A stretch of DNA of 46,108 nucleotides from a virus, in the IMG/VR virus record IMGVR_UViG_3300005580_000007, positions 1 through 46,108 of that record, one strand, 5' to 3'. The notes beneath the pieces were generated by a model that saw nothing but the letters and a program-made list of their open reading frames with translations, did no database searches and was not told where the DNA came from. Numbering within the stretch: the stretch's first letter is position 1; every line of letters begins with the position of its first letter. This document shows positions 24,884-45,977 of the stretch, one piece after another. Both the position numbers and the translations under genes were made by a program.

Positions 24884-27292
24884 TTATGCTGTTAAGTCGC
24901 CGTAAACAACCCATGTATCTGTTGCTCTCTTGAAAAGAGTAACTCCAGACCATTGTGTACGTAACTTCAAACCTGGTGTTCCATTAACTGTTACTCCTCC
25001 AGCACCTGCAATTGTAACCTGCCCTGCGCCTGTCTGTAGAATATCAATTGATGTTCCTACTGGCCAAGCAACCGTTGCATTTGTTGGAACTGTTAAAGTG
25101 AGTGCTGATGCTGATCCCATTTCAATCATGGAATCTCTTTCTGTTAGAGCTGAAAGTGTGTATGAAGCAGTTTTTTGAATAATGGGTGTCCGTGACTGAA
25201 CGCCTTCCTTTGTTTGTGTTCCGTCTGTAAATGCTACACCTGAAGCAGAGGCTGTAATTAATCCTGATGCTGTAAGTGCTGCTACGTTATTTGTACCAGT
25301 AAATGTTGGTGATGCAAGTGGAGCAAATCCTGAAATGCTTGCACCTGCAGGAATTGTTACTGTTCCAGTAAATGTAGGTGAAGCAATTGGGGCTTTTAGT
25401 GCAATTGAAGTTGTTAGTGTTGTAGATAAGTTTGCATCATTTCCAAGAGCAGTTGCAATTTCTCCAAGAGTATCAAGAGTTGCTCCTGCACTATTTACAA
25501 GTGCTGCAACTTCTCCACGAACATAAGCAGTTGTTGCAACCTGTGTTGTATTAGTTGCTGCTGCTGCTGTTGGAGCAGTTGGTACACCAGTAAGTGCTGG
25601 TGAATCAAGTGGTGCCTTAAGAGCAACATTTGCTACTGTTTCTTTAAGGTCAAGTGCTGTCTGTGCAGCAGTTGAAACTGGTTTATTTGCATCTGAAGTA
25701 TTATCAACATTTGCAAGTCCTACTGAAGACTTTGTAAGTGCTGCTACTGCAGTTGAAACCTTTGTATCTGCTGCTGTTCCAGCAGCTGCAATTGCTTCTG
25801 ATTTTGCTGTTGCAACTGTTGTCGCTGTGGCAAGAACTGAGGTGTCTGCAATTCCGTGAACTGCAGTTGTATCAGCAGAGTGTGTGCCAATTGCTGTGTT
25901 TCTATCATTAACCTCTGTGCCAATTGCTGTTGAAATTGCTGTATTTCTATCTGTTACTTCAGTACCAATTGCTGTTGAAATTTTTGTGTCTACTGCAGTA
26001 GATGTAATCAATGCAGCTGTATCTACAATTCCATGTACGTTTGTTGTGTCTAGATTGTGAGTATTAATGTCTGCCTGATAAGCTATAAGTGAAGTGTCTG
26101 CAATTCCGTGAACTGCTGTTGTATCTAGCCTGTGTGCCTCAATAGCATCACCTGCAGCTACGCCTGCAGTTGAAATTGCTGCGGCTTCTGCTGCATCTGC
26201 CATTTCAATTGCTTTATCAGTTGCATAAGTTTCATATGCTGTTGTTAATGTAGTTGCACTAGAAGTAATTTGTCCATCTACGTATGATTTGCTTGTAGCA
26301 TCTCCGACATTTGTTGGTGTTGGTAGATTTGTAACTTTGTTAGTTCCACCCATGCTTAGGTTTCCCGACATTGTTCCGCCTGCTAGTGGAAGCTTTGTTG
26401 CGATTGAATTAGTTATTGTTGTTGAAAATGCTGCATCATCTCCTAGGGCAGCGGCTAACTCATTTAAAGTATTTAATGTTGCTGGAGCTGCTTCTACCAA
26501 ATCAGATATTGCTGTATCTACATAAGATTTTGTAGCTGCATCTAGATTTCCTGTAGGAGTTGCTAATCCAACAATTTTAAATCCATTTGCTGATAAATCT
26601 GTTCCTAATGTTTTATTTGATACGGTTGATGCTGATGTTGTTGTTAAAAGCAAAGCTGTATCTGCAATTCCATGTACATCTGTTTGATCAGCGCTGTGTG
26701 TTGAAACTGCTGTATCTGCATATGTCTTAGTTGCAACTGTTGAATCAATGTCAATGGTTATTGTTCCATTTGCATCATCGTATGTCTTGTCTAAACCTGT
26801 TCCAGCTAACAATGCTGCTTCTACTGTATCTACTACAGCTTCTGAACCTACTAGTGCCTGCCAGTTTCCATTTACTGTTGCTGGTGATGTGGCAAGTACA
26901 TACGACTGTCCGCTGTCTGTTTGGATAGCAATGTCTCCAACCTGAGCAGTTAAGGCAAGTCTTGCTGCCTGGTTTGCTGCTGAAGCAACTGTTACTTTTG
27001 AAAGTGGTGGTAATTGAGATACATTTAATAATCCACTTGAATCAAGTGTAGCAACACCTGAAGGTGTTCCAAATTGTGATAAGGGAATGTAGTCTCCCAA
27101 TGAAGACTCTAGAATGTATGGAAGGTTACCAAACTTAGCTGAACCATTTCCTACTTTAAATGTATTTTCGTCTGTTACAAAACCGACTTCTCCTGCTGCT
27201 AGGATTACACCAGCGCCAATTGCGTCTGCTGTAGCCCATTCTGTTGATGTACCTCTTCTAAGCTGAATTCTTACTGTTGACATTTTTGCCAC
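24884..27292 (-). CDS. Long tail fibre with Mtd-like N-terminal domain
   Basis: 802 residues. The N-terminus (VRIQLRRGTSTEWATADAI, then GEVGFVTDENTFKVGNGSAKFG) matches the N-terminal domain of major-tropism-determinant-type fibres. The rest is repetitive: several THSADTTAVHGIADT-like units, SYVDTAISDLVEAAPATLNT plus NELAAALGDDA units, and a SPTFTGT-type segment. These are typical of trimeric beta-helical and coiled-coil shafts. The C-terminus (about 720-802) is a small beta domain (TLTVPTNATVAWPVGTSIDI). Likely host-receptor fibre. Driven by its own promoter. Confidence 0.85.
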   Translation of the reverse strand: MAKMSTVRIQLRRGTSTEWATADAIGAGVILAAGEVGFVTDENTFKVGNGSAKFGNLPYILESSLGDYIPLSQFGTPSGVATLDSSGLLNVSQLPPLSKVTVASAANQAARLALTAQVGDIAIQTDSGQSYVLATSPATVNGNWQALVGSEAVVDTVEAALLAGTGLDKTYDDANGTITIDIDSTVATKTYADTAVSTHSADQTDVHGIADTALLLTTTSASTVSNKTLGTDLSANGFKIVGLATPTGNLDAATKSYVDTAISDLVEAAPATLNTLNELAAALGDDAAFSTTITNSIATKLPLAGGTMSGNLSMGGTNKVTNLPTPTNVGDATSKSYVDGQITSSATTLTTAYETYATDKAIEMADAAEAAAISTAGVAAGDAIEAHRLDTTAVHGIADTSLIAYQADINTHNLDTTNVHGIVDTAALITSTAVDTKISTAIGTEVTDRNTAISTAIGTEVNDRNTAIGTHSADTTAVHGIADTSVLATATTVATAKSEAIAAAGTAADTKVSTAVAALTKSSVGLANVDNTSDANKPVSTAAQTALDLKETVANVALKAPLDSPALTGVPTAPTAAAATNTTQVATTAYVRGEVAALVNSAGATLDTLGEIATALGNDANLSTTLTTSIALKAPIASPTFTGTVTIPAGASISGFAPLASPTFTGTNNVAALTASGLITASASGVAFTDGTQTKEGVQSRTPIIQKTASYTLSALTERDSMIEMGSASALTLTVPTNATVAWPVGTSIDILQTGAGQVTIAGAGGVTVNGTPGLKLRTQWSGVTLFKRATDTWVVYGDLTA

Positions 27293-36121: not shown

Positions 36122-36150
36122 TCGTTATCTCTCTAAAGGAGGAAATGCCA

Positions 36151-36702
36151 ATGGAGAATATAAAACAAAAGATGAGCGATTTTGCTCATAGTATGACTGT
36201 AATAGTAATGATAACATTATTTCTATTTACAAACAATACTGTGATCCCCGCTCAAGCTTTAAAAGTACAACCAAAGACAGAAGTACAACTTAAGAAAGAA
36301 ACCTTAGAAAAGTACAGCAATACTGTTTACAAGCCTTCGGAAAAGCTTTCAGACATTGAATTGAAAGAACTACTGGCAGCAGTAGGTTTTGAAGGAGAAG
36401 CCCTTAGAACGGCTTGGGCCATTGCTAATAGGGAGTCCAGCGGACGCCCACTAGCATACAATGGCAACAGGAATACTGGAGACAGTTCCTATGGAATTTT
36501 TCAGATCAACATGTTGGGAAACCTTGGTGTTGCTCGTAAAGAAAAATTTAACCTGAGATCAAATGTACTATTATTTGATCCAGTAATAAATGCAGAGATA
36601 ACGTATTATATGACCAAGGGCGGTACTGATTGGTCAGCTTGGAAGGGTTTAACCCCAAGAGCAAAGGAATTTTATTTGAAGTTCCCAACTACACAGAAGT
36701 AG
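36151..36702 (+). CDS. Exported lysozyme-like (transglycosylase-fold) endolysin
   Basis: 183 residues from ATG 36151, 8 nt after AAAGGAGGA; ATG 36145 is too close to it. Residues about 14-36 are a signal or signal-anchor segment (MTVIVMITLFLFTNN) ending in a possible AQA cleavage site. The catalytic domain carries AWAIANRESSGRP with catalytic-type E95, then NTGDSSYGIFQINM and INAEITYYMTKGGTDWSAW. This is the lysozyme-like fold of SLT and resuscitation-factor type enzymes. Cuts peptidoglycan. The signal suggests export without a holin, though a holin is encoded nearby. Confidence 0.85.
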   Translation: MENIKQKMSDFAHSMTVIVMITLFLFTNNTVIPAQALKVQPKTEVQLKKETLEKYSNTVYKPSEKLSDIELKELLAAVGFEGEALRTAWAIANRESSGRPLAYNGNRNTGDSSYGIFQINMLGNLGVARKEKFNLRSNVLLFDPVINAEITYYMTKGGTDWSAWKGLTPRAKEFYLKFPTTQK

Positions 36703-36708
36703 GAGAAA

Positions 36709-36921
36709 ATGCGTAGGATACAGTATGTATCTAAATACATAGCACTTTCTGAAGAAGGCCTTGTACCTAGACTGGAATGCCCACTAGATCAAGGTCTTCT
36801 TCTTTCTAATCAAACGGATTTAGATGAAGTATATGTATATTGCCTTTCTTGCGAATATAAAAAATTCATAGGCTTTGGCTTTTACGATGAAATAATTAAG
36901 GCGGTAAAAAAATATGGATAG
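36709..36921 (+). CDS. Small Cys-containing protein
   Basis: 70 residues, 3 nt after the endolysin stop with GGAGAAA before ATG. It has ECPLDQG and, near residue 47, CLSC, so three Cys in C-x22-C-x2-C order, a partial zinc-ribbon arrangement (a fourth ligand is not obvious). The C-terminus is basic. Coupled to the next gene by 8-nt overlap. Function unknown. Confidence 0.65.
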   Translation: MRRIQYVSKYIALSEEGLVPRLECPLDQGLLLSNQTDLDEVYVYCLSCEYKKFIGFGFYDEIIKAVKKYG

Positions 36922-37120
36922 CAAAGATGAACAATCAATAGAAGATAACCTACCAATGGTTAACTATATAATGCTTCATAGAATATACGATATGCTTACT
37001 GTTATTGCTAATAAATTAGTTGGTGGCGATGAAATTAATAAAATGGTAGAATATCATGAAGCAGGATATCTTTTAGGCCCAGCACCTTCTTACAATGCTG
37101 GATTAGATGAAAAGGAATAA
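36914..37120 (+). CDS. Small protein of unknown function
   Basis: 68 residues, beginning inside the stop of the preceding gene. Central helix MVNYIMLHRIYDMLTVIANKLV is amphipathic rather than membrane-spanning. The tail is acidic with YHEAGYLLGPAPSYNAG. Not recognised. Confidence 0.6.
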   Translation: MDSKDEQSIEDNLPMVNYIMLHRIYDMLTVIANKLVGGDEINKMVEYHEAGYLLGPAPSYNAGLDEKE

Positions 37121-37122
37121 AA

Positions 37123-37311
37123 ATGGATAAAGAAAAAATTGTACTTGCATTACTAGAAAAAATGAATAATGATACTAGATCTGCTGGATTGCAAAATGGA
37201 ATAGACCTTATGCAAATAGAGCAGCAAATTATTGCAAATGCTGACGGCTTGCATTATCTTTTGGGAAGTCTTTACGATTTTATTGTAGAGAAAGAATTTT
37301 TTAAAGGCTAG
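37123..37311 (+). CDS. Small helical protein of unknown function
   Basis: 62 residues, starting 2 nt after the previous stop. Helix-rich with EKMNNDTRSAGLQNGIDLMQ; ends FIVEKEFFKG. Last gene of this plus-strand group; stem-loops and a terminator follow. Not recognised. Confidence 0.6.
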   Translation: MDKEKIVLALLEKMNNDTRSAGLQNGIDLMQIEQQIIANADGLHYLLGSLYDFIVEKEFFKG

Positions 37312-37319
37312 ATATAAAG

Positions 37320-37415
37320 TAAAATTGTGTTAGTTGAAGTATTTATTGCTCCTAACACATTGCACTATTTTTAGTGCATAACCCCAATTGGATCCGCCTC
37401 CAATTGGGGTTTTTA
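37320..37415 (+). ncRNA. Three consecutive stem-loops ending in a terminator
   Basis: SL1: TGTGTTAG (37326-37333) with CTAACACA (37352-37359). SL2: TGCACTA (37361-37367) with TAGTGCA (37372-37378), loop TTTT. SL3: CCCCAATTGG (37382-37391) with CCAATTGGGG (37400-37409), followed by TTTTT. All three stems are perfect. This may be a tandem terminator or the 3' part of a small structured RNA. No known RNA family recognised. Confidence 0.4.
37382..37415 (+). terminator. Strong Rho-independent terminator
   Basis: A 10-bp perfect stem with an 8-nt loop followed by five T, ending the endolysin gene group. Confidence 0.88.
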
Positions 37416-37427
37416 TATTTAAAATGG

Positions 37428-37436
37428 TGGTATAAT
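37428..37436 (+). promoter_or_regulatory. Extended -10 promoter for a leaderless mRNA (site 1)
   Basis: TGGTATAAT with exactly 6 nt to ATG 37443. Transcription is expected to start at or next to the A of the ATG, and no ribosome binding site is visible. Sits just after the strong terminator. Confidence 0.65.
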
Positions 37437-37442
37437 TATTAC

Positions 37443-37589
37443 ATGGGTGGAGCACATCATTTTGCAAAGACAATGCGTAGTCCTTATTTTACAATGGATG
37501 AGTACCAGGATAGCTGCCCCTGTAATAAAATTGTTTGTAGACTTGAAAGATTTTTAAAGTCTTTTTTATCATCTAAAAAGAAAAAATAA
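37443..37589 (+). CDS. Small Cys/Lys-rich protein
   Basis: 48 residues from ATG 37443, chosen because a -10 element lies 6 nt upstream; a longer in-frame ATG at 37374 lies within the terminator region and is unlikely. Sequence has MGGAHHFAKTM, SCPCNKIVC, and a lysine tail. HH and C-x-C-x4-C could bind a metal. Unknown function. Confidence 0.55.
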   Translation: MGGAHHFAKTMRSPYFTMDEYQDSCPCNKIVCRLERFLKSFLSSKKKK

Positions 37590-37590
37590 A

Positions 37591-38256
37591 ATGAAACATA
37601 CTGGCACAATTAATATAATTGAAAATTTTATATCACCACAAACATGTAAATATTTAATAGAAAGCTATAAAAATTCTTTTTTTGAAAATGAAAATACAAA
37701 TGACAATGTTTTAGCAGGACCCAGCTTAGGCTTAGAACATGCATGGACGGTAAGTCCAACCAACACTTTTCCATTTACAGATAAAAAAGACAAAGAAAAA
37801 ACAATATCTTCTGATATATTTACTCACGTTTTGCAAAGTATGAAATACTATGTTTCGAAAGAGTCTGGTAACGAGGTTGACCTTAGAACTGTTTTTCTAA
37901 GCAAAATGGTTACTGGAGCAAAATTGCAAGAGCATTATGATAATTATGATCCAGATGGGACACCATTTTATCCTTACGGGACAAACGCAGATGTTTTAAA
38001 CAAAATAGGGTTCAAATCAGATTTTTCAGCTTTGCTTTATTTAAACGATGATTATACTGGTGGAGAAATTGAATTTACACAGCACAGTTTAAAGTTAAAA
38101 CCTAAGCCAGGAACATTTATTTTTTTTAGAGGTGATATGGATGCGAAACATCTAGTACATAAAGTTGAATCTGGAGAAAGAATTAACTTAGTAACATTTT
38201 TTTGGGAAACAGAATACAGAAAAAAATATTTTGAAGAATTGCAGAAACAAAATTAA
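37591..38256 (+). CDS. Fe(II)/2-oxoglutarate-dependent oxygenase, plus-strand copy G
   Basis: 221 residues, starting 1 nt after the previous stop. Ligands H115-x-D117 and H187, R197 for 2OG; YLNDDYTGGEIEFTQHSLKL and KPGTFIFFRGDMDAKHLV are the family's signature strands. Overlaps the sulfotransferase-like gene by 26 nt, suggesting their products act together. Confidence 0.9.
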   Translation: MKHTGTINIIENFISPQTCKYLIESYKNSFFENENTNDNVLAGPSLGLEHAWTVSPTNTFPFTDKKDKEKTISSDIFTHVLQSMKYYVSKESGNEVDLRTVFLSKMVTGAKLQEHYDNYDPDGTPFYPYGTNADVLNKIGFKSDFSALLYLNDDYTGGEIEFTQHSLKLKPKPGTFIFFRGDMDAKHLVHKVESGERINLVTFFWETEYRKKYFEELQKQN

Positions 38257-38971
38257 ATTTAATTCTTTTTACTATTTGCATATTCCAAAAACTGGAGGAA
38301 GATGGCTTACCTCAAAAATGGAAGACGTATTTGATTATTTTGATTATAATAAAATTAAAATTATTAACAATAAAAACGAATATAAAAATAACTCCTTTGG
38401 CGAAAGAAATGGTGCCGATGCAACAAAATATTATGAGCACCAGGGCTGGCATTCAGAAATAGACAAAGATACATTTATACTTACGGTTTTTAGAGATCCA
38501 ATTAAACAACTATGTAGCTTGTGGACCAACTCAAACGAAAACTTTATCTATGAAAATGGATTAAAAAAGGAAATATTTCTAAAAGACATGTCAAGCAAGT
38601 CACCGTATTTAAACAATCAATCTGTAAGTTTGTCTAATTCTACAAAACTTAAAAATTTTGGTATAGGTTTTAAAACTTTAGATATAGATTTTTTAATAAA
38701 TAGAATTGATAGAATAAATAAAATAATTTTACTTCAAGAAAATGAAATAGATTACAATAAAGAAATTAAAAATTTATTAAGCTTAATGCAGATTGATTTA
38801 CCTACTAAAATAGAAAAATGGCAGAATAATGTTGCCAGCTATAAAAATAAAAATCCTATGTCTAAAAGCCTTTTTAATTCTTTATCCGACGAGGAAAAAC
38901 AATATCTAGGCGAATTACAGTATCTTGACATGGCCCTATATAATAGAATTATTGAAAAAGGGTTAAAATAA
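38231..38971 (+). CDS. Sulfotransferase-like protein
   Basis: 246 residues. HIPKTGGRW at residues 17-25 is the 5'-phosphosulfate-binding loop of the carbohydrate sulfotransferase superfamily, and VFRDPIKQLCSLW with R88 and S96 is the 3'-phosphate-binding motif. PAPS-dependent transfer of sulfate to a glycan or protein is predicted. The C-terminal half is helical and Lys/Asn-rich. The start overlaps the oxygenase end. It could act on tail glycans or host surface sugars. Confidence 0.78.
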   Translation: MKNCRNKIKFNSFYYLHIPKTGGRWLTSKMEDVFDYFDYNKIKIINNKNEYKNNSFGERNGADATKYYEHQGWHSEIDKDTFILTVFRDPIKQLCSLWTNSNENFIYENGLKKEIFLKDMSSKSPYLNNQSVSLSNSTKLKNFGIGFKTLDIDFLINRIDRINKIILLQENEIDYNKEIKNLLSLMQIDLPTKIEKWQNNVASYKNKNPMSKSLFNSLSDEEKQYLGELQYLDMALYNRIIEKGLK

Positions 38972-38995
38972 ATTTGGTCTATATGAAAGCAAAGG

Positions 38996-39004
38996 TGGTA
39001 TAAT
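38996..39004 (+). promoter_or_regulatory. Extended -10 promoter for a leaderless mRNA (site 2)
   Basis: TGGTATAAT with exactly 6 nt to ATG 39011. The 11-mer GGTGGTATAAT is the same as at 37426-37436. No ribosome binding site precedes the gene. Confidence 0.68.
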
Positions 39005-39010
39005 TAACAT

Positions 39011-39769
39011 ATGTTCTACGACAACCCAAATATTGAAAAAGTGGCTCCTAAGATTTTTGTATACAGAAATTTTGTACCCAAAGAAATGGTTGATGCCGTT
39101 AATGAAGAAATGTCTAAGTATGGACTTGAAGATTTTATTCTAGATGACCATGCTATTGATTGGTATGCGGATAAAACTGGACCCAACGTTCTTGCCCTAT
39201 ACCCAGTATGGGATTTAATATCTGATCTTTTACAGCCTGAATTTTGTGTCCACCCAAACCTATCCATGCAGGTTATGAAGCCTGGAGACACAATGTTTGT
39301 TCATTCTGATTCTCCTGGAAGAGATATGGAAGAAGATTTAACTCAACAGGATCGATGGAATACTTGCTGCATTATCGAGTATGGTGTTTGTGTTTATTTT
39401 GGAGAATTTACTGGCGGAGAAGTTTTTTATCCAGTAAAAGGACTAGAAGTTGCAGTAAATCCAGGAGATTTGGTAATTCACGGAACTCTTGCAGAATACG
39501 AGCATGGAGTACGAGAAGTAAAATCAGGACTAAGATATTGTTACTCTAATTTTTCATTGTACACAAATGAAAACCCTGGAACTTTTCCTGTTAGAGGATC
39601 TGAAGAGGAGTTATCTAGAAGATCGACTCCTATGACTTGGATGACCCCACTTGGAGACATTAACCCTATTACTGGTGTTGCTTTAACTAGTGAAAAATAT
39701 AAATCTTTATATGGTGAAGATGCACCTAAAAAAATAGACACTAATTGGAAAAAAGAAACCTCTAATTAA
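39011..39769 (+). CDS. Fe(II)/2-oxoglutarate-dependent oxygenase, plus-strand copy H
   Basis: 252 residues. Ligands H98-x-D100 and H165, R175 for 2OG; FTGGEVFYPVKGLEVAVNPG and AEYEHGVREVKSGLRY give the barrel. The C-terminal 60 residues (SRRSTPMTWMTPLGDINPIT) are beyond the barrel. Own leaderless-type promoter, so regulated apart from the late oxygenases. Confidence 0.88.
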   Translation: MFYDNPNIEKVAPKIFVYRNFVPKEMVDAVNEEMSKYGLEDFILDDHAIDWYADKTGPNVLALYPVWDLISDLLQPEFCVHPNLSMQVMKPGDTMFVHSDSPGRDMEEDLTQQDRWNTCCIIEYGVCVYFGEFTGGEVFYPVKGLEVAVNPGDLVIHGTLAEYEHGVREVKSGLRYCYSNFSLYTNENPGTFPVRGSEEELSRRSTPMTWMTPLGDINPITGVALTSEKYKSLYGEDAPKKIDTNWKKETSN

Positions 39770-39856
39770 TTTTATAATCTAATTAATATTGTTTATATTC
39801 ATCATTATATTCCTAGTGAAGTGAAAAAAGTGCGGCGGCGGTAGAAGAGCCCATAT

Positions 39857-40147
39857 TTAGAAATCAATAACCCTTTTGCCATATACTTTATTATATTTCT
39901 CATCCTGTGTAAATTCGTACAGAATATCCATTAACATTTTACAGCTAGAATGGCTTTCTAAGTACCATATGTCACAATACCCCTCAGATGCATTCAAACA
40001 TTTGCCTAAATAGCCTTCTAGCCGTTCTACGGCCCATTCTAGGGCGGCGGTGGCAAGCAAGGTATCCGCCATATAGTAGTTACATTCCCTATATCGTCTA
40101 TCTTTAAATGATTTAGCTATATCGTGAACAAGGTTAGAATTGATCAT
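39857..40147 (-). CDS. Small protein of unknown function
   Basis: 96 residues. Helical; contains Cys at C22, C50, C58 and C69 and YYMADTLLATAALEWAVERL. Starts inside the last codons of the small membrane protein gene upstream. Not recognised. Confidence 0.6.
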   Translation of the reverse strand: MINSNLVHDIAKSFKDRRYRECNYYMADTLLATAALEWAVERLEGYLGKCLNASEGYCDIWYLESHSSCKMLMDILYEFTQDEKYNKVYGKRVIDF

Positions 40148-40286
40148 CTTCGTCTATATCTTCAGATAGATCAAAATCAAAGCTATCTCCAAGTCCCGCC
40201 ATTTTTATTAACTCATATAACGCATATCCAGAAGCTATTGCTGTTGCCAGCAATAGTATCCCTGTTGATACTTTATTCTTCATCAT
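40134..40286 (-). CDS. Small single-span membrane protein
   Basis: 50 residues from ATG 40286, overlapping the stop of the JmjC/cupin gene and the start of the 39857-40147 gene. Basic N-terminus, one hydrophobic span (TGILLLATAIASGYALYEL), then a very acidic tail (DLSEDIDEDDQF). Predicted Nin-Cout. Function unknown. Confidence 0.6.
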   Translation of the reverse strand: MMKNKVSTGILLLATAIASGYALYELIKMAGLGDSFDFDLSEDIDEDDQF

Positions 40287-40851
40287 TTCCCCCACTATTT
40301 TCGTTTAGATATTGAAATATATATGTTGCTCGTGGCTCTAGAATTGAAACCTCATGAAAAACACCTGTTGGTATATAAACGACATCTCCTGGGTTTAACA
40401 CATGGATTAAATATGGTTTGGCTTCTTTTGATTCAGAAAATCTATATTCTACTTTTCCAAGCACCTGCCATGAAATTACATCATGATCATCTGCATGCAT
40501 CCAATAATCTGCTTCGTTAGATACTAGATTTAATAATACTTTACCACCAACGGCTTCTTTTCCAATTATTGAATTTAATGTTTCAACTAAATAATCTGAC
40601 TCTGGTATTAGCCCATTGTGGTCATAATGTATAGTTCCGTCTTTAGATACAACAGATGCCAAAGCATTAAAGCATATTAAATCCATTTGATTATATATCG
40701 ATATACTTTTTTTATTATTGTTGTATGTATAATCTATATTTTTTAAAACTCTTTCCCATGATGGGACAGTTGGATAAATATTTTCTAATATTAATGGTTT
40801 ACAGTCTAGTACAGCTTTTGTAAAAAGATCTTTTAACTCTGTTTCATTCAT
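40273..40851 (-). CDS. JmjC/cupin-type Fe(II) oxygenase
   Basis: 192 residues. HADDHDVISWQVLGKVEYRF near 119 and GDVVYIPTGVFHEV near 156 are the two conserved strands of cupin_4/JmjC-like hydroxylases: H119-x-D121 and H166 are the likely iron ligands. Relatives hydroxylate ribosomal proteins, histones or other protein side chains, so it may complement the P4H-like enzymes. Part of a minus-strand operon with the carbamoyltransferase and the SGNH hydrolase, separated by two micro-ORFs. Confidence 0.78.
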   Translation of the reverse strand: MNETELKDLFTKAVLDCKPLILENIYPTVPSWERVLKNIDYTYNNNKKSISIYNQMDLICFNALASVVSKDGTIHYDHNGLIPESDYLVETLNSIIGKEAVGGKVLLNLVSNEADYWMHADDHDVISWQVLGKVEYRFSESKEAKPYLIHVLNPGDVVYIPTGVFHEVSILEPRATYIFQYLNENSGGNDEE

Positions 40852-40867
40852 TCATATGCTCCATATT

Positions 40868-40981
40868 CTAGTTGACTGAGATTAATATTGATAGTACAAC
40901 AAATGCTGCAATCAATGAGATAGAAATAAATTTTACCTTTTTCTTTCTTGGCCATTCGTTTGGCACCTTTACATTATTCAT
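40868..40981 (-). CDS. Micro-ORF membrane peptide
   Basis: 37 residues: MNNVKVPNEWPRKKKVKFIS then a hydrophobic span IAAFVVLSILISVN. AGGAGT sits 6 nt before ATG. One basic-anchored transmembrane helix. Function unknown. Confidence 0.55.
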   Translation of the reverse strand: MNNVKVPNEWPRKKKVKFISISLIAAFVVLSILISVN

Positions 40982-41001
40982 ATTTTACTCCTTTGTATAT
41001 T

Positions 41002-41079
41002 TTAGCCTAATATTTGATACATGATACCAAGGATAAAAGTAATTACTGCTACAACCGCTACGGCATATAAAGTTTTCAT
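41002..41079 (-). CDS. Micro-ORF hydrophobic peptide
   Basis: 25 residues, MKTLYAVAVVAVITFILGIM plus YQILG. GAGAGG precedes ATG, which overlaps nothing but lies 1 nt after the carbamoyltransferase stop. Nearly the whole peptide is a membrane helix, as in phage membrane-targeting micropeptides. Function unknown. Confidence 0.5.
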   Translation of the reverse strand: MKTLYAVAVVAVITFILGIMYQILG

Positions 41080-41080
41080 T

Positions 41081-42505
41081 TTATCCTCTCAAAATTTTAA
41101 AGTTATATTCCTTTTCCCACTTTTCAATATCCAAAGCATCGTTTAATAAAGGTTGACCTTTTATATTTAAACTTGTGTTTAATAATATTGGAACGCCAGT
41201 AATAGTATACCATTTTTCTAAAAGAGAATATAGCCCCTTATGTTGATTTTTATTAACTGTTTGTACTCTGGACGTCCCGTCCTTATGTACAACAGATGGA
41301 ATTTTTTCTGGCTGTAAACACTTAACCGTATATTGCATATATGGACTTTCAAAATTCATATCGAACCATTTGGAGGCATGCTCTTCCATGACTACTGGAG
41401 CAAATGGTCTAAATAGCTCTCTTTGCTTAATTGCATTAACTTTATCTTTAATAGATGGATCTCTTGGGTCTGCTAATATAGATCTATTACCTAAAGCCCT
41501 TGGGCCATATTCCGCTCTTCCTGTTGCTACCGCCGCAATTCCATCTTTTGACAATTTGTTAATAATTGCTTTTACTGGATACTCTCCGCCTAGATCATGG
41601 CCCAGGTATGGGCTTTTCCAATTTATATGGCTTTCGTATAGTGCACAAGCTGCACCCAAAGATGATCCAGCATCTCCTGGGTTGGGCATAATCCACACGC
41701 TATCAAAAATATTCCAGAGCATTGTATTTGCAGAAGAATTAAGAGCACAACCTCCCATAAAGACAAGATTTTTTTTTCCAGTAGTTGAGTATGCCAAGTG
41801 CATAAATTCGTTTAGCCTTTGTTCATATACAAACTGTACTGCTGCAGCTATATCAAACTTGTTTTGTTCTGTTACTTCTATATCCCAATCATATATGCCT
41901 TTATGAAAATTATATTTTTGTTTATCATACTTTGGAAAATATAAATCTACTTTTTTATAATATTTTTTCCAATCTCCATAAGCTGCCATACCCATCATAA
42001 TGTATTCTTCTTGATTTGGTTTTAATCCAATTAATTGAGTAAAAGCTGAATAAAATAATCCAAAACTTACTGGGTAATTTTGTTTATATTTTAATTTAAT
42101 TTTATTTTTTTCTCCGACCCAGATTGTTGAAGTGTTCCATTCCCCAATTGCATCAAGAACAACTACAGCAGCGTCATCATATTTACTGGTGTAGTATCCC
42201 GCCGAAGCATGCGAATAGTGATGTCCAAAATACTTTACTGGTAGATCCATTGGTATATTTGGAAGCCAATCAGATGCACCACCTTTTAACAACAGTCTAC
42301 TTTTTTTAAGTAATGGTTTTTCATAGTACGCTATGTGTGTTGGTGTTCCATAGTTTAGTGCATCTAGATATATGTCTCTGTTGTTGTACCAATCATTTTT
42401 TTTCTTACTGTATCTTTCTGCGTGCCCCGCAAAAAGGATCTCTCCATCTTTTATTAGTGAAATCGAAGCGTCGTGAGATGTTTCGTTAATTCCTAAAATT
42501 ATCAT
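41081..42505 (-). CDS. Carbamoyltransferase (NodU/CmcH/TobZ family)
   Basis: 474 residues. Two domains: Kae1-like half with ILGINETSHDASISLIKDGE at 3-22, FGHHYSHASAGYYTS, VVVLDAIGEWNTSTIW and EEYIMMGMAAYGDW; C-terminal YrdC-like half with AEYGPRALGNRSILADPRDP near 345. Transfers carbamoyl from carbamoyl phosphate (via carbamoyl-AMP) to a sugar hydroxyl in this family. Related to host O-carbamoylation and to phage-borne copies. Coupled to the SGNH hydrolase by a 4-nt overlap. Sugar target unknown. Confidence 0.88.
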   Translation of the reverse strand: MIILGINETSHDASISLIKDGEILFAGHAERYSKKKNDWYNNRDIYLDALNYGTPTHIAYYEKPLLKKSRLLLKGGASDWLPNIPMDLPVKYFGHHYSHASAGYYTSKYDDAAVVVLDAIGEWNTSTIWVGEKNKIKLKYKQNYPVSFGLFYSAFTQLIGLKPNQEEYIMMGMAAYGDWKKYYKKVDLYFPKYDKQKYNFHKGIYDWDIEVTEQNKFDIAAAVQFVYEQRLNEFMHLAYSTTGKKNLVFMGGCALNSSANTMLWNIFDSVWIMPNPGDAGSSLGAACALYESHINWKSPYLGHDLGGEYPVKAIINKLSKDGIAAVATGRAEYGPRALGNRSILADPRDPSIKDKVNAIKQRELFRPFAPVVMEEHASKWFDMNFESPYMQYTVKCLQPEKIPSVVHKDGTSRVQTVNKNQHKGLYSLLEKWYTITGVPILLNTSLNIKGQPLLNDALDIEKWEKEYNFKILRG

Positions 42506-43287
42506 TGGTCTTTTTTAAAAGCATTATACATAAGATCTGCATAAAAATTATGAAATGAAGTTCCTGGATGACAATCATCTGCTGCCCATAAAGATTTTTC
42601 AGGAGTATTTGTAACCTTATCATATTCAAAAACACTATTAAGCATATCTTTTGAAGAATAGTCACGGTATGAACTAAAATTGTTTAAGCTATAAACTTTT
42701 TGCATAGAAGCAGGTAATGGATACCCTTCTGGTATTTTTTGTTTAGGCTCTCCCGATTTTCCTTGCTCAGTCCATAAAGGCCTTAGCATTTTTTTGCCTT
42801 CATAGTTCCAAATATGTCTTACAGGGTTTCCAATTTTTGCATCTATAGATTTTACCCAAGAAAATGAGTAAAGTTTTATATTATTTGATTTGCAGTACTG
42901 CTCTAAATATAGATACATGTTAAATATGTAAGGATACATAAATTTATCGTAAACATGTCGTTGTTCTCTGTGAAATTCTGTTGTAACAAAAAATACAAGA
43001 TCTGGATTTCCGTAATTATGGCAATATTTAAAAAATTGATCAATCGATTCTGTTGTTGAGCTTCCAGAAATGCCTACGTTAAAATACCCACTAGTTGGCT
43101 CTTCTTGAGATATCCTTGAATATAGCTTATAACACCAAGTGTCTTTTTTATCCAGCCCGTCGCCTGCCGCAAATGAGTCACCTATAAAAAGTATGTGCTT
43201 ACCCTGATGATTTTCTTTAAATGGATCGCACCTGTAGTCAAACTCGTTGTCAGAGTCTCTTAAGCCAAAAGTAGGATTTGTATCCAT
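42502..43287 (-). CDS. SGNH/GDSL hydrolase-like protein
   Basis: 261 residues. GDS at 36-38 within ILFIGDSFAAGDGLDKKDTW provides the nucleophile serine S38; NVGISGSSTTE is block II; DDCHPG with D237 and H240 ends the fold. Alpha/beta hydrolase of the SGNH class, able to remove or transfer acyl groups on sugars. Next to carbamoyltransferase, so it probably tunes the same glycan. No signal peptide, so it acts in the cytoplasm. Confidence 0.8.
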   Translation of the reverse strand: MDTNPTFGLRDSDNEFDYRCDPFKENHQGKHILFIGDSFAAGDGLDKKDTWCYKLYSRISQEEPTSGYFNVGISGSSTTESIDQFFKYCHNYGNPDLVFFVTTEFHREQRHVYDKFMYPYIFNMYLYLEQYCKSNNIKLYSFSWVKSIDAKIGNPVRHIWNYEGKKMLRPLWTEQGKSGEPKQKIPEGYPLPASMQKVYSLNNFSSYRDYSSKDMLNSVFEYDKVTNTPEKSLWAADDCHPGTSFHNFYADLMYNAFKKDQ

Positions 43288-43556: not shown

Positions 43557-43865
43557 CTGCTTTATCTGTATGTATTTTATCTTTATAACTTTCAACTTGG
43601 AAATTAGATTTTAGCAAACCCCCCCTACCCCCCAAATTTTAACTTTTTGGAAAGTAGGAGAAGTTACTAGATCATATCTCCAAGTAATAACTTGGCATAT
43701 TGAGTCTTAGTGTAACCCCCGAAACCTTTCCAATTGTAACATGAGACATTTTTGTAGGTCAAGCTTTTTCAGATTTCTAAAAATGTTAATATGTATTTTT
43801 CTTGTATGATACACACTATTTAGCATGTCCGAATTGTCCGATAGTGCGACCATAATAGTCTTATT

Positions 43866-43881
43866 TGTGACCCTTATCACA
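43866..43881. promoter_or_regulatory. CRP/GlxR-type palindrome 1
   Basis: TGTGACCCTTATCACA is a perfect TGTGA-N6-TCACA operator. It starts 64 nt before the TGTCAG element at 43930. Confidence 0.7.
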
Positions 43882-43929
43882 TAACTATTTTTAGAATTGT
43901 CCCTAATGTCCGAATTGCGACTAGAAATT

Positions 43930-43951
43930 TGTCAGACCCCCGTGATAGTCT
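43930..43951 (+). promoter_or_regulatory. TGTCAG-N10-TAGTCT promoter-like element (early, copy 1)
   Basis: TGTCAG followed by 10 nt and TAGTCT, the most divergent -10 of the set. Same spacing from its palindrome as copy 3. Confidence 0.45.
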
Positions 43952-43996
43952 TAAGACATAAGTTAATCAAGGTGATTAACAGAAAGGAGTTACATA

Positions 43997-44143
43997 ATGA
44001 GTAACTCAATGTTTGAAAGAGCGAGAGGGTTCGCTACTGTATCCGATTACCCTAAAGGTCTAATGAACCTGTGTCCATGCGGTCAGGTAGTCTTAGCACC
44101 AGCCCTATACCATGAAAGGTGTGAGGCAACTCACACCGCATAG
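43997..44143 (+). CDS. Small early protein with CPC and Cys/His residues
   Basis: 48 residues, AAAGGAG 7 nt upstream of ATG. Contains LCPCGQVV and later YHERCEATH, so C-x-C plus H/C could form a small zinc site. Its 3' end contains palindrome 2, so coding and regulatory sequence overlap. Unknown function. Confidence 0.55.
   Translation: MSNSMFERARGFATVSDYPKGLMNLCPCGQVVLAPALYHERCEATHTA
44120..44135. promoter_or_regulatory. CRP/GlxR-type palindrome 2
   Basis: TGTGAGGCAACTCACA; the flanks extend it to GGTGTGA-N6-TCACACC, a 7-bp perfect half-site. It starts 54 nt before the TGTCAG element at 44174 and lies within the end of the upstream coding sequence. Confidence 0.68.
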
Positions 44144-44173
44144 GCCACACGCTACGGCGTGTCGGCTTGATAA

Positions 44174-44195
44174 TGTCAGCCAACTAGGCTACAAT
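44174..44195 (+). promoter_or_regulatory. TGTCAG-N10-TACAAT promoter-like element (early, copy 2)
   Basis: TGTCAG, 10 nt, TACAATTCCA; a weak -35 TTGATA also lies 17 nt before TACAAT. The leader AACCAACTAACGAAAG follows and is shared with copy 4. Confidence 0.65.
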
Positions 44196-44231
44196 TCCAA
44201 CTATAACCAACTAACGAAAGAAGAACAGACA

Positions 44232-44384
44232 ATGACAATCACATACTCACTATGGGACGGCGCTCAACTACTAGGCGCAGGCTTCACCGCTAATAGCGCT
44301 GACGAAATGAATAAGGTAGTAGCAGACCTACAAAAGGTTTCTAAAAATGTTGTAGCACACATGCGAAAGGTAGAACAAAACTAA
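44232..44384 (+). CDS. Small early protein
   Basis: 50 residues from ATG 44232 (an upstream in-frame ATG lies in the promoter region and is rejected). Begins MTITYSLWDGAQLLGAGFTA, ending VAHMRKVEQN. Alpha/beta, no motif. TAATG overlap with the next gene. Preceded by GAAAGAAGA. Confidence 0.65.
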   Translation: MTITYSLWDGAQLLGAGFTANSADEMNKVVADLQKVSKNVVAHMRKVEQN

Positions 44385-44563
44385 TGACTAAATGGGACAC
44401 GATACAGGCAGACGTAGCAGACCAATACGCATACCTTGATGAGGTAGATGATGAGCAAGATGATGAGCAAGATGATTTCTTTGGCTTTGCTAAGTCTATT
44501 GAGACCGACCACTTAACAGATGAGCAAGTAGATGAAATCTTTAACATGTTCGGAGATAAGTAA
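44384..44563 (+). CDS. Small acidic early protein
   Basis: 59 residues, highly Asp/Glu-rich, with a DEQDDEQDDFF repeat around residue 23-33. Coupled to the previous gene by TAATG overlap. Acidic small phage proteins often mimic DNA or bind basic partners; nothing here proves it. Confidence 0.6.
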   Translation: MTKWDTIQADVADQYAYLDEVDDEQDDEQDDFFGFAKSIETDHLTDEQVDEIFNMFGDK

Positions 44564-44704
44564 ATGACTATCGAACTAAATGACTACGGCTTTATGTTTG
44601 ACATGGGTGACTTTATCTATGTCTCTCTATCATGGGCTTTTATTATCTTGACCGCCTTATCTATAACCGCCTATAAGATTTATAAGAGAAAGAAGAATAA
44701 GTAA
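44564..44704 (+). CDS. Small early membrane protein
   Basis: 46 residues: MTIELNDYGFMFDMG, a hydrophobic span FIYVSLSWAFIILTALSITA, then a basic tail YKIYKRKKNK. Single helix with the basic end likely cytoplasmic. Ends in TAATG overlap with the next gene. Confidence 0.6.
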   Translation: MTIELNDYGFMFDMGDFIYVSLSWAFIILTALSITAYKIYKRKKNK

Positions 44705-44817
44705 TGACTAGAGCACTAACTACACTAGTACAATTAGCCCTTGCAGTACCCGCCCTATACATGGGGCGCATAGTATGGCATGAGTTTGTTATCGAGATGA
44801 AGGAGTTATTTAATTGA
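44704..44817 (+). CDS. Small early hydrophobic protein
   Basis: 37 residues, MTRALTTLVQLALAVPALYM then a polar end. One membrane or signal-like helix. Its TGA overlaps the TTG start of the next gene. Confidence 0.5.
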   Translation: MTRALTTLVQLALAVPALYMGRIVWHEFVIEMKELFN

Positions 44818-45026
44818 GTATGACACAATTCGAAAGAGACCTAACTATAAAAGAGAGCTTTATAGATTTACTTAATGAGATTTATCCCGAGGTAAAGATT
44901 GGCTACTCTACCTTTACTCCCGCCGAGATCTTGGAGTGTTGCGACCCTATCGCCTTTAGTATAGGCGTTATAGAGCATGAGGACTACATGCTAGAGCGTG
45001 GCGAGCTAGATGATGAAGAGATGTAA
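44814..45026 (+). CDS. Small early protein
   Basis: 70 residues from TTG 44814, 8 nt after GGAG; ATG 44820 is an alternative but too far from that site. Acidic, with FTPAEILECCDPIAFSIGVI. Unknown function; last gene before the DnaA-box region. Confidence 0.6.
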   Translation: MSMTQFERDLTIKESFIDLLNEIYPEVKIGYSTFTPAEILECCDPIAFSIGVIEHEDYMLERGELDDEEM

Positions 45027-45053
45027 ATCACACTAGCCTAGCGGCGTGTCGCC

Positions 45054-45082
45054 TTGACAGGGGCGGCATCTGCCCCTATCTG
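45054..45082 (+). promoter_or_regulatory. TTGACA -35 with palindromic 17-nt spacer
   Basis: TTGACA (45054-45059), a 17-nt spacer and TATCTG (45077-45082). AGGGGC (45059-45064) and GCCCCT (45072-45077) make the spacer a hairpin/operator. The -10 is poor. Confidence 0.35.
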
Positions 45083-45166
45083 TGTGGGGGCTGTGGATAA
45101 CTTACGACAGGCTGTGGATAACCCTGAAAATTTGTGGACAGCCTGTGTACGACACGCCCGAGATCT

Positions 45167-45182
45167 TGTGACTTTTATCACA
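45167..45182. promoter_or_regulatory. CRP/GlxR-type palindrome 3
   Basis: TGTGACTTTTATCACA, perfect TGTGA-N6-TCACA, differing from palindrome 1 at two positions only. It starts exactly 64 nt before the TGTCAG element at 45231. Confidence 0.7.
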
Positions 45183-45230
45183 CGGCTTGAGCGTCTCAGT
45201 ATTTGGAATTACTGGCTAGTAATTAGTTTA

Positions 45231-45252
45231 TGTCAGTCCGTTCGTGTATAAT
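45231..45252 (+). promoter_or_regulatory. TGTCAG-N10-TATAAT promoter-like element (early, copy 3)
   Basis: TGTCAG, 10 nt, TATAATTCCA; the leader then reads AACCAAACGAAAGG. Confidence 0.7.
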
Positions 45253-45283: not shown

Positions 45284-45478
45284 ATGTCAGCAAATGTCTA
45301 TACAATCGAAAGCCTACTTGTAGGAAAACTCTATCGCTCAAAAACTTTAACGGGCGAGATTATCTCAGCAGAAAAACACCCTGCACCAGTATGGTACGAA
45401 AACGCAGAGGCGTATTTAGTCGAGGTGCGTAATCATAACGGTGGCTATGCTCACCGAACCGTTGCCGTCAATAACTAA
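45284..45478 (+). CDS. Small early protein
   Basis: 64 residues from ATG 45284 (earlier in-frame ATG/GTG lies in the promoter). Beta-rich: SLLVGKLYRSKTLTGEIISA, ending GGYAHRTVAVNN; ribosome site CGAAAGGCGG. No motif recognised. Confidence 0.65.
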   Translation: MSANVYTIESLLVGKLYRSKTLTGEIISAEKHPAPVWYENAEAYLVEVRNHNGGYAHRTVAVNN

Positions 45479-45480
45479 TT

Positions 45481-45502
45481 TGTCAGTGGCACCTGATACA
45501 AT
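45481..45502 (+). promoter_or_regulatory. TGTCAG-N10-TACAAT promoter-like element (early, copy 4)
   Basis: TGTCAG, 10 nt, TACAATTCCA, then leader AACCAACTAACGAAAG. It has no perfect TGTGA-N6-TCACA palindrome upstream. Confidence 0.65.
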
Positions 45503-45532: not shown

Positions 45533-45628
45533 ATGACACTTGATGAATACAAAGAAATGGTAACTGCTCAGCGTGAAGCGAGCAAGGCCGAAGCCCTAAC
45601 AATTTTAACACGAAAGGAAAACTCATAA
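45533..45628 (+). CDS. Micro-ORF, helical peptide
   Basis: 31 residues, MTLDEYKEMVTAQREASKAE then ALTILTRKENS. Good AACGAAAGG site and TAATG overlap with the next gene support translation. Function unknown. Confidence 0.55.
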   Translation: MTLDEYKEMVTAQREASKAEALTILTRKENS

Positions 45629-45771
45629 TGGGAAACATTCTAGATGAATTAACTAACATTCTCGCAATAGATTGTGATGAATGTGGCGGTGCAGGATTTT
45701 TATTTTTCGGTAACGAAAACAATTTTGATGTAGAGCCTTGCGATTGCGTAACAGATGAGGAGTTAATTTAA
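45628..45771 (+). CDS. Small Cys-rich protein (DnaJ-type zinc finger-like)
   Basis: 47 residues. C-x2-C in CDECGGAGFLF and C-x-C in EPCDCV. CDECGGAG resembles half of a DnaJ CxxCxGxG zinc repeat. Coupled to both neighbours by TAATG overlaps. Confidence 0.6.
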   Translation: MGNILDELTNILAIDCDECGGAGFLFFGNENNFDVEPCDCVTDEELI

Positions 45772-45977
45772 TGTATAAAATTACTTGCGCTTATGATAGC
45801 GAACCAATTCATTATATTAGAGAATACGAAAACGAATTCGGTGCATGGGAAAACTTTTTCTTATTTACTGACTGGGGATTTGCAGATGAATACTCAACTG
45901 TTAATCTTTACACGCCAACAGGCAAATGCCATACAAAAGTTTTTTATCGTGAAGGTAGAAGGGTCGTAGTAAAATGA
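45771..45977 (+). CDS. Small early protein
   Basis: 68 residues. Aromatic-rich, FGAWENFFLFTDWGFADEYS, then TGKCHTKVFYREGRRVVVK. Not recognised. The stop overlaps the next start. Confidence 0.6.
   Translation: MYKITCAYDSEPIHYIREYENEFGAWENFFLFTDWGFADEYSTVNLYTPTGKCHTKVFYREGRRVVVK

Follow-up and report, generated by a model that had tools for sequence, protein, structure and literature searches.

The right end of the DNA analysed here (the window, a 46,108-base fragment of virus record IMGVR_UViG_3300005580_000007) carries a real and conserved family of two-part promoters, in which perfect TGTGA-N6-TCACA palindromes lie in helical register upstream of a PafBC-type promoter. The explanation that we favour, with a probability of roughly 0.6, is that these are composite promoters of an early arm, at which host PafBC and RNA polymerase would be helped by a class-I-like coactivator, host CRP/GlxR, sitting at the upstream site. 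The sequences thus organised suggest that two host control systems are read at once by the virus.

The window has its structural genes on the minus strand; small open reading frames (ORFs) form an arm that starts near position 43,990 and continues past the window's right end. On sequence grounds, we assign this small-gene arm to an actinobacteriophage with relatives in the Stanwilliamsviridae. Elsewhere the window encodes a protein with an Mtd N-terminal domain (24884–27292), a possible tropism determinant, and a cargo region (36145–43287) of sulfotransferase, 2OG oxygenase, cupin, carbamoyltransferase and GDSL-type genes. The annotated features of the arm are:

43866–43881, plus strand: palindrome 1, CRP/GlxR-type, TGTGACCCTTATCACA, with TGTCAG 64 nt on.
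43930–43951, plus strand: promoter 1, PafBC-type, TGTCAGACCCCCGTGATAGTCT (−26 element and −10), with the motif as in PMC8151990.
43997–44143, plus strand: ORF of 48 aa behind promoter 1, with a CPC...H...C...H pattern and no PHROGs match.
44120–44135, plus strand: palindrome 2, TGTGAGGCAACTCACA, within the 3′ end of the ORF at 43997–44143, with TGTCAG 54 nt on.
44174–44195, plus strand: promoter 2, PafBC-type, TGTCAGCCAACTAGGCTACAAT.
44232–44384, plus strand: ORF of 50 aa behind promoter 2, which opens a run of small ORFs.
45167–45182, plus strand: palindrome 3, TGTGACTTTTATCACA, with TGTCAG 64 nt on and an orthologous site at 63–65 nt in most relatives.
45231–45252, plus strand: promoter 3, PafBC-type, TGTCAGTCCGTTCGTGTATAAT.
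45284–45478, plus strand: MSANVYT ORF of 64 aa (MSANVYTIESLL...), behind promoter 3 and conserved in the family.
45481–45502, plus strand: promoter 4, PafBC-type with an extended −10, TGTCAGTGGCACCTGATACAAT.
45533–45628, plus strand: ORF of 31 aa behind promoter 4.

The first-pass annotation had reported three perfect palindromes at 43866, 44120 and 45167, placed 64, 54 and 64 nt before TGTCAG elements that start at 43930, 44174 and 45231. All three were recovered as exact matches at these distances, and an exact-match scan of all 46,108 bases found no further perfect TGTGAN6TCACA; the annotation had noticed none in the structural region. Over 300 first-order Markov shuffles of the window, which keep its dinucleotide frequencies, the palindrome occurred 0.05 times on average and once at most. 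The motif TGTCAG-N10-TAnnnT has five copies between 43930 and 45481, all on the plus strand (shuffle mean 0.58, maximum 3). One of these, at 45285–45306, overlaps the first codons of the MSANVYT ORF and is found in relatives 116–121 nt past the palindrome; it is probably a coding coincidence or a product of coding conservation. Palindrome 2 falls within the last codons (CEATH) of the upstream ORF, so that operator and coding constraint overlap there. Promoter 4 has no palindrome, the best candidate matching 7 of 10 letters and lying out of register. We also observed the 11-mer TGTCCGAATTG twice around palindrome 1 (43826–43836 and 43907–43917), and stretches of the similar form aatgtccgattt come after palindromes at 50 nt in relatives; the 11-mer could be another operator.

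TGTCAG had been described at first pass as a promoter-like element; that it is no generic promoter part and belongs to a published PafBC motif had been missed. The logo from 195 distinct copies reads WWWTGTCAGTSS, followed by TGn before TAtaaT, and contains neither TTGACA nor a −35 box. In 139 of these 195 copies TGTCAG lies exactly 10 nt before TAnnnT, with an extended −10. In Mycobacterium tuberculosis the reported PafBC motif consists of TGTCGG, TGTCAG or TGTCAC, then 10 nt, TA, 3 nt and T (PMC8151990), which the phage TGTCAG-N10-TAnnnT matches letter for letter. The WYL domains of PafBC are its binding sites for single-stranded DNA, and by inserting between sigma domain 4 and DNA it lets sigma-A polymerase use promoters with the −26 motif (PMC11804915). 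Since TGTCAG corresponds to the PafBC −26 element, the second input to these promoters is probably DNA damage or single-stranded DNA. WhiA (GACAC) was a candidate reader of TGTCAG until the exact match to the PafBC motif displaced it, and T4 MotA was also considered, the sequence of its box being different.

No known phage gave a megablast match to half of the window, and relatives were therefore sought through an arm ORF of 68 aa (45771–45977). This ORF has 80 relatives, on viral contigs of up to 117 kb. A scan for palindrome plus promoter returned at least 120 stretches, some of which are on the same contigs, and the arrangement recurs across a full set of 201 sequences that are related or alike in layout. 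The capsids of phages that have it range from 88% down to 43% identity to that of the window, and WhiB-like genes, which are expected in actinophages, occur in 13 of 15 phage records. The nearest named phages are the Stanwilliamsviridae of Streptomyces (ribonucleotide reductase, RNR, 65% and capsid 57–63% identical), which on this evidence we regard as relatives of the window phage; we do not file it among them. One sequence with the arrangement, CAINGU010000031.1 (L109; 109,918 bases), comes from a bin labelled uncultured cyanobacterium. A single strand of its 8-kb locus bears six promoters along with three palindromes, its genome record contains a capsid homologue that is 60% identical, and it appears to belong to the window's phage family, that is, to be a misbinned phage.

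In long records the palindromes and promoters are confined to one arm of roughly 12 kb. Most of the records are linear fragments. Each of 23 records of 43–117 kb contains four to eight palindromes, the same number as the arm locus alone. In one 117-kb record all 16 TGTCAG-N10-TAnnnT promoters are on one strand within about 12 kb (21.3–32.7 kb), and in a 116-kb record 17 of 18 are on one strand (94.7–105.4 kb); a few divergent lineages have head-to-head promoter pairs on both strands. A start codon with a ribosome-binding site follows TGTCAG by 44–69 nt at nearly every promoter. About half of the promoters carry a palindrome; in the two long records the share is roughly 60%, with some 40% of promoters lacking any site. 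Every gene or short operon of the arm would be provided with a promoter of its own, and from the gene arrangement we infer that these promoters are early.

The spacing between the two parts is phased and conserved. In a first set of 74 non-redundant palindromes, TGTCAG follows 57 of them on the same strand, and the mirror arrangement never occurs. A joint set, drawn from the matches listed, retained 192 palindromes after sequences at least 60% alike had been dropped; a promoter lies at most 90 nt away from 125 of these. Among those 125 listed matches, 103 are in register, with peaks at 34, 44, 54, 64 and 75 nt, and a best period of about 10.25 nt; under a uniform-spacing null, p = 3.5e-28. Chance was modelled by this null and by Markov shuffles, and some pseudo-replication is left after the similarity filter. 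Fixed helical placement, as claimed at first pass, would be contradicted by random positions in relatives; the check found phased spacing there. At the orthologous promoter of the MSANVYT gene a distance of 63–65 nt is kept in L033, L036 and L070 despite wholly different spacers. Promoters without a perfect palindrome often have one of 8–9 of the 10 letters, with pile-ups at 34, 44, 54–55 and 64 nt, and near-matches to the real half-site at palindrome-less promoters number 108, compared with 20 for a scrambled half-site control. The palindromes are bimodal, being either present with 8–10 letters, mostly in register, or absent. About 10% lie at 49 or 50 nt, half a turn out of register, and we count these against the composite-promoter explanation. 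Palindromes at 49 nt are seen in L004, L017, L021 and L042, and several of those at 50 nt are in tandem with an in-register site at 75 or 76 nt in L149, L158, L161 and L173.

The first-pass assignment of the half-site to the CRP/GlxR type agrees with what we found, the palindromes matching the consensus TGTGANNTANNTCACA. Between the half-sites NNTANN is preferred (T at 0.63 in the centre, followed by A at 0.50 or T at 0.38), and TGTGANNTANNTCACA with central TA is what we take to be the GlxR consensus. The cyclic-nucleotide-binding domain PF00027 is present in 341 of 346 genomes of the inferred host class, which is that of a distant actinomycete, and the CRP recognition helix SRETVNK is identical in all 16 CRPs read from a sample of this class. 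The acting CRP and PafBC are deduced from this class. CRP-type control of early genes, as proposed at first pass, is partly supported, in so far as phased CRP/GlxR-type operators occur throughout the family; its further parts, control by host carbon or cAMP state or by a phage regulator with CRP-like specificity, did not fare as well, and the PafBC core had gone unnoticed. A search of 23 small actinomycete genomes, which may not be the hosts, yielded no class III adenylate cyclase (PF00211), so that control by carbon or cAMP state is not supported. These 23 genomes contain three perfect palindromes, which is the chance level. Together with the lack of PF00211 in them, this makes it uncertain which ligand their CRP naturally takes and how it uses operators, a point that we count against our explanation.

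These chance-level counts also bear on the possibility that PafBC reads TGTCAG and that the palindromes are operators of a phage regulator, activator or repressor, that has the specificity of a CRP but lacks a CRP domain that can be detected. Operators that are nearly private to the phages would be accounted for in this way, and many small phage proteins have no family match. We nevertheless consider such a regulator unlikely. The consensus, including its central TA, is presumably that of GlxR, and a GlxR-type CRP is nearly always present in the host class. PF00027 occurs in 0 of 23 phage records, which makes a phage-encoded CRP improbable, and searches of the phage records for the Crp-type helix-turn-helix (PF13545) gave hits of 13 bits only, at chance level and partly broken by stops.

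If TAnnnT represents −12 to −7, the palindrome centres would fall near −64.5, −74.5 and −84.5, a class-I-like position as predicted at first pass; with transcription taken to begin 12 nt past the opening T of TAnnnT, the full series of predicted centres is near −54.5, −64.5, −74.5, −84.5 and −95.5. Class I CRP sites are centred at −61.5, −71.5, −82.5 and −92.5. With the start placement assumed, the phage centres are about 3 nt off the canonical class I CRP site of E. coli at −61.5 (PMC5957442), which we count against our explanation. We favour activation over repression, since the sites precede the core promoter and stay in helical register with it. Host CRP/GlxR might instead bind as a repressor, an insulator or a roadblock between packed genes, or the sites might be a sponge that titrates it. 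In favour of this, the phage sites are closer to consensus than host sites, and cAMP-CRP represses promoters of coliphage T1 (PMC6737242). Against this, every in-register site is upstream of the core promoter and none overlaps −35 to +1, a roadblock or sponge needs no helical phasing with a promoter, and in the two long records about 40% of the promoters have no site at all. We judge this set of roles to be slightly less probable than a phage regulator.

A host PafBC as the reader of TGTCAG is consistent with what is found in small actinomycete genomes (1.3–1.5 Mb). Extended −10 promoters of the PafBC type precede recA (L281–L283) and carD (L280 and L284), genes that we take to be such from their translations, and adjacent WYL genes of PafB and PafC size are present in 10 of 10 of these genomes, which may not be those of the hosts. 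The PafBC-like promoters could be read instead by a phage mimic of PafBC or by another sigma adaptor, with DNA damage being irrelevant. The phages do carry WhiB-like proteins, and proteins of this kind act at sigma region 4. Early genes, moreover, usually have to work in cells free of damage, but PafBC requires single-stranded DNA (PMC11804915). That recA and carD of small actinomycetes are preceded by the same motif and extended −10 argues for a host factor, however, as does the WYL domain count of 0 in 30 phages, and no phage analogue is reported in the literature searched; of the alternatives that leave the sites a function, this one seems to us the least probable. Chance, or conserved repeats without function, is already contradicted: while shared ancestry means that the counts are not independent, perfect palindromes exceed the shuffles (3 versus 0.05), phasing persists among sequences less than 60% identical, distances are kept across replaced spacers and the arrangement is kept in lineages with capsids 43% identical.

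Our preferred model of composite promoters would work as follows. The core promoter resembles the host's DNA-damage promoters in its build: TGTCAG as the −26 element, 10 nt, and TAnnnT. The −10 is often extended by TGn, and there is no −35 box. Single-stranded DNA would activate host PafBC, which would adapt the host sigma-A polymerase to the arm promoters ('sigma adaptation'). A host GlxR-type CRP would bind the TGTGANNTANNTCACA operator on one face of the DNA, whole turns upstream, and would recruit or hold the PafBC-polymerase, either through the alpha-CTD as in class I or through PafBC itself. The arm would in this way be coupled to two host regulators, neither of which the phage encodes. 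GlxR-type CRP and PafB/PafC-type proteins are present in the host class, and both domains are absent from the phages searched. A search for the composite in bacterial genomes totalling 257 Gb gave 41 hits, which are scattered apart from those in phage contig L109, the only contig where it is repeated; we thus found no host precedent for CRP plus PafBC, and we count this against the model. More tentatively, and at somewhat less than even odds, we propose that most of the arm in this widespread family is under host PafBC and CRP/GlxR acting jointly on one polymerase, gated by host DNA damage and CRP state, an activation by both together of which we found no example among the hosts themselves.

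PafBC promoters and CRP sites are each known singly. In the literature searched, which covered few subscription journals, we found no report of phage use of PafBC promoters and none of CRP and PafBC on one promoter. If the model is true, the small genes of the arm are switched on once single-stranded DNA is sensed by PafBC, whether it stems, for instance, from phage DNA during entry or replication or from damage to the host's DNA, and the family offers dozens of natural spacing variants for the study of an upstream activator combined with sigma adaptation. A long list of small unknown phage genes would then become a coherent, testable regulon.

The Stanwilliamsviridae (Faust, Mildred21 and Paradiddles) share with the window the order glycosyltransferase-RNR-...-portal-protease-capsid and an arm of small genes, but the Streptomyces phage arms that we read have no palindrome-promoter composite. 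The operators resemble those of GlxR in Corynebacterium and of CRP in other actinobacteria in their sequence, TGTGANNTANNTCACA, and the host class has a GlxR-type CRP with the helix SRETVNK; many of the phage sites are perfect, whereas in small actinomycete genomes perfect sites occur only at the chance level. E. coli class I CRP promoters of the lac type likewise have a single upstream CRP-type site moving in steps of about 10.5 nt, but the phage promoters differ in their other centres, their PafBC-type core and their minor 49/50-nt class, and activation and alpha-CTD contact are here predicted. At T4 middle promoters, a MotA box near −30 replaces the −35 element, about 10–13 nt before a sigma-70 −10. 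The phage promoters are similar in having an activator box in place of the −35 element, and they differ in the sequence of the box and in the factor, which in T4 is a phage protein and here, on present evidence, would be host PafBC. In coliphage T1 host CRP is also reported to act on phage promoters, as we predict here; T1 presents repression at a lysogeny-lysis switch, whereas the sites described here are phased, lie upstream of a DNA-damage-type promoter and extend over a whole arm (PMC6737242). The closest counterparts of the core are the PafBC-dependent (RecA-NDp) mycobacterial promoters such as that of recA, which have TGTCRG-N10-TAnnnT with a sigma-A −10 and no −35, are directional and adjoin a gene start. 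The phage copies, for which PafBC dependence is predicted, are distinguished from these by their crowding in an arm of small genes of unknown function and by the phased CRP-type operator to which about half of them are joined.
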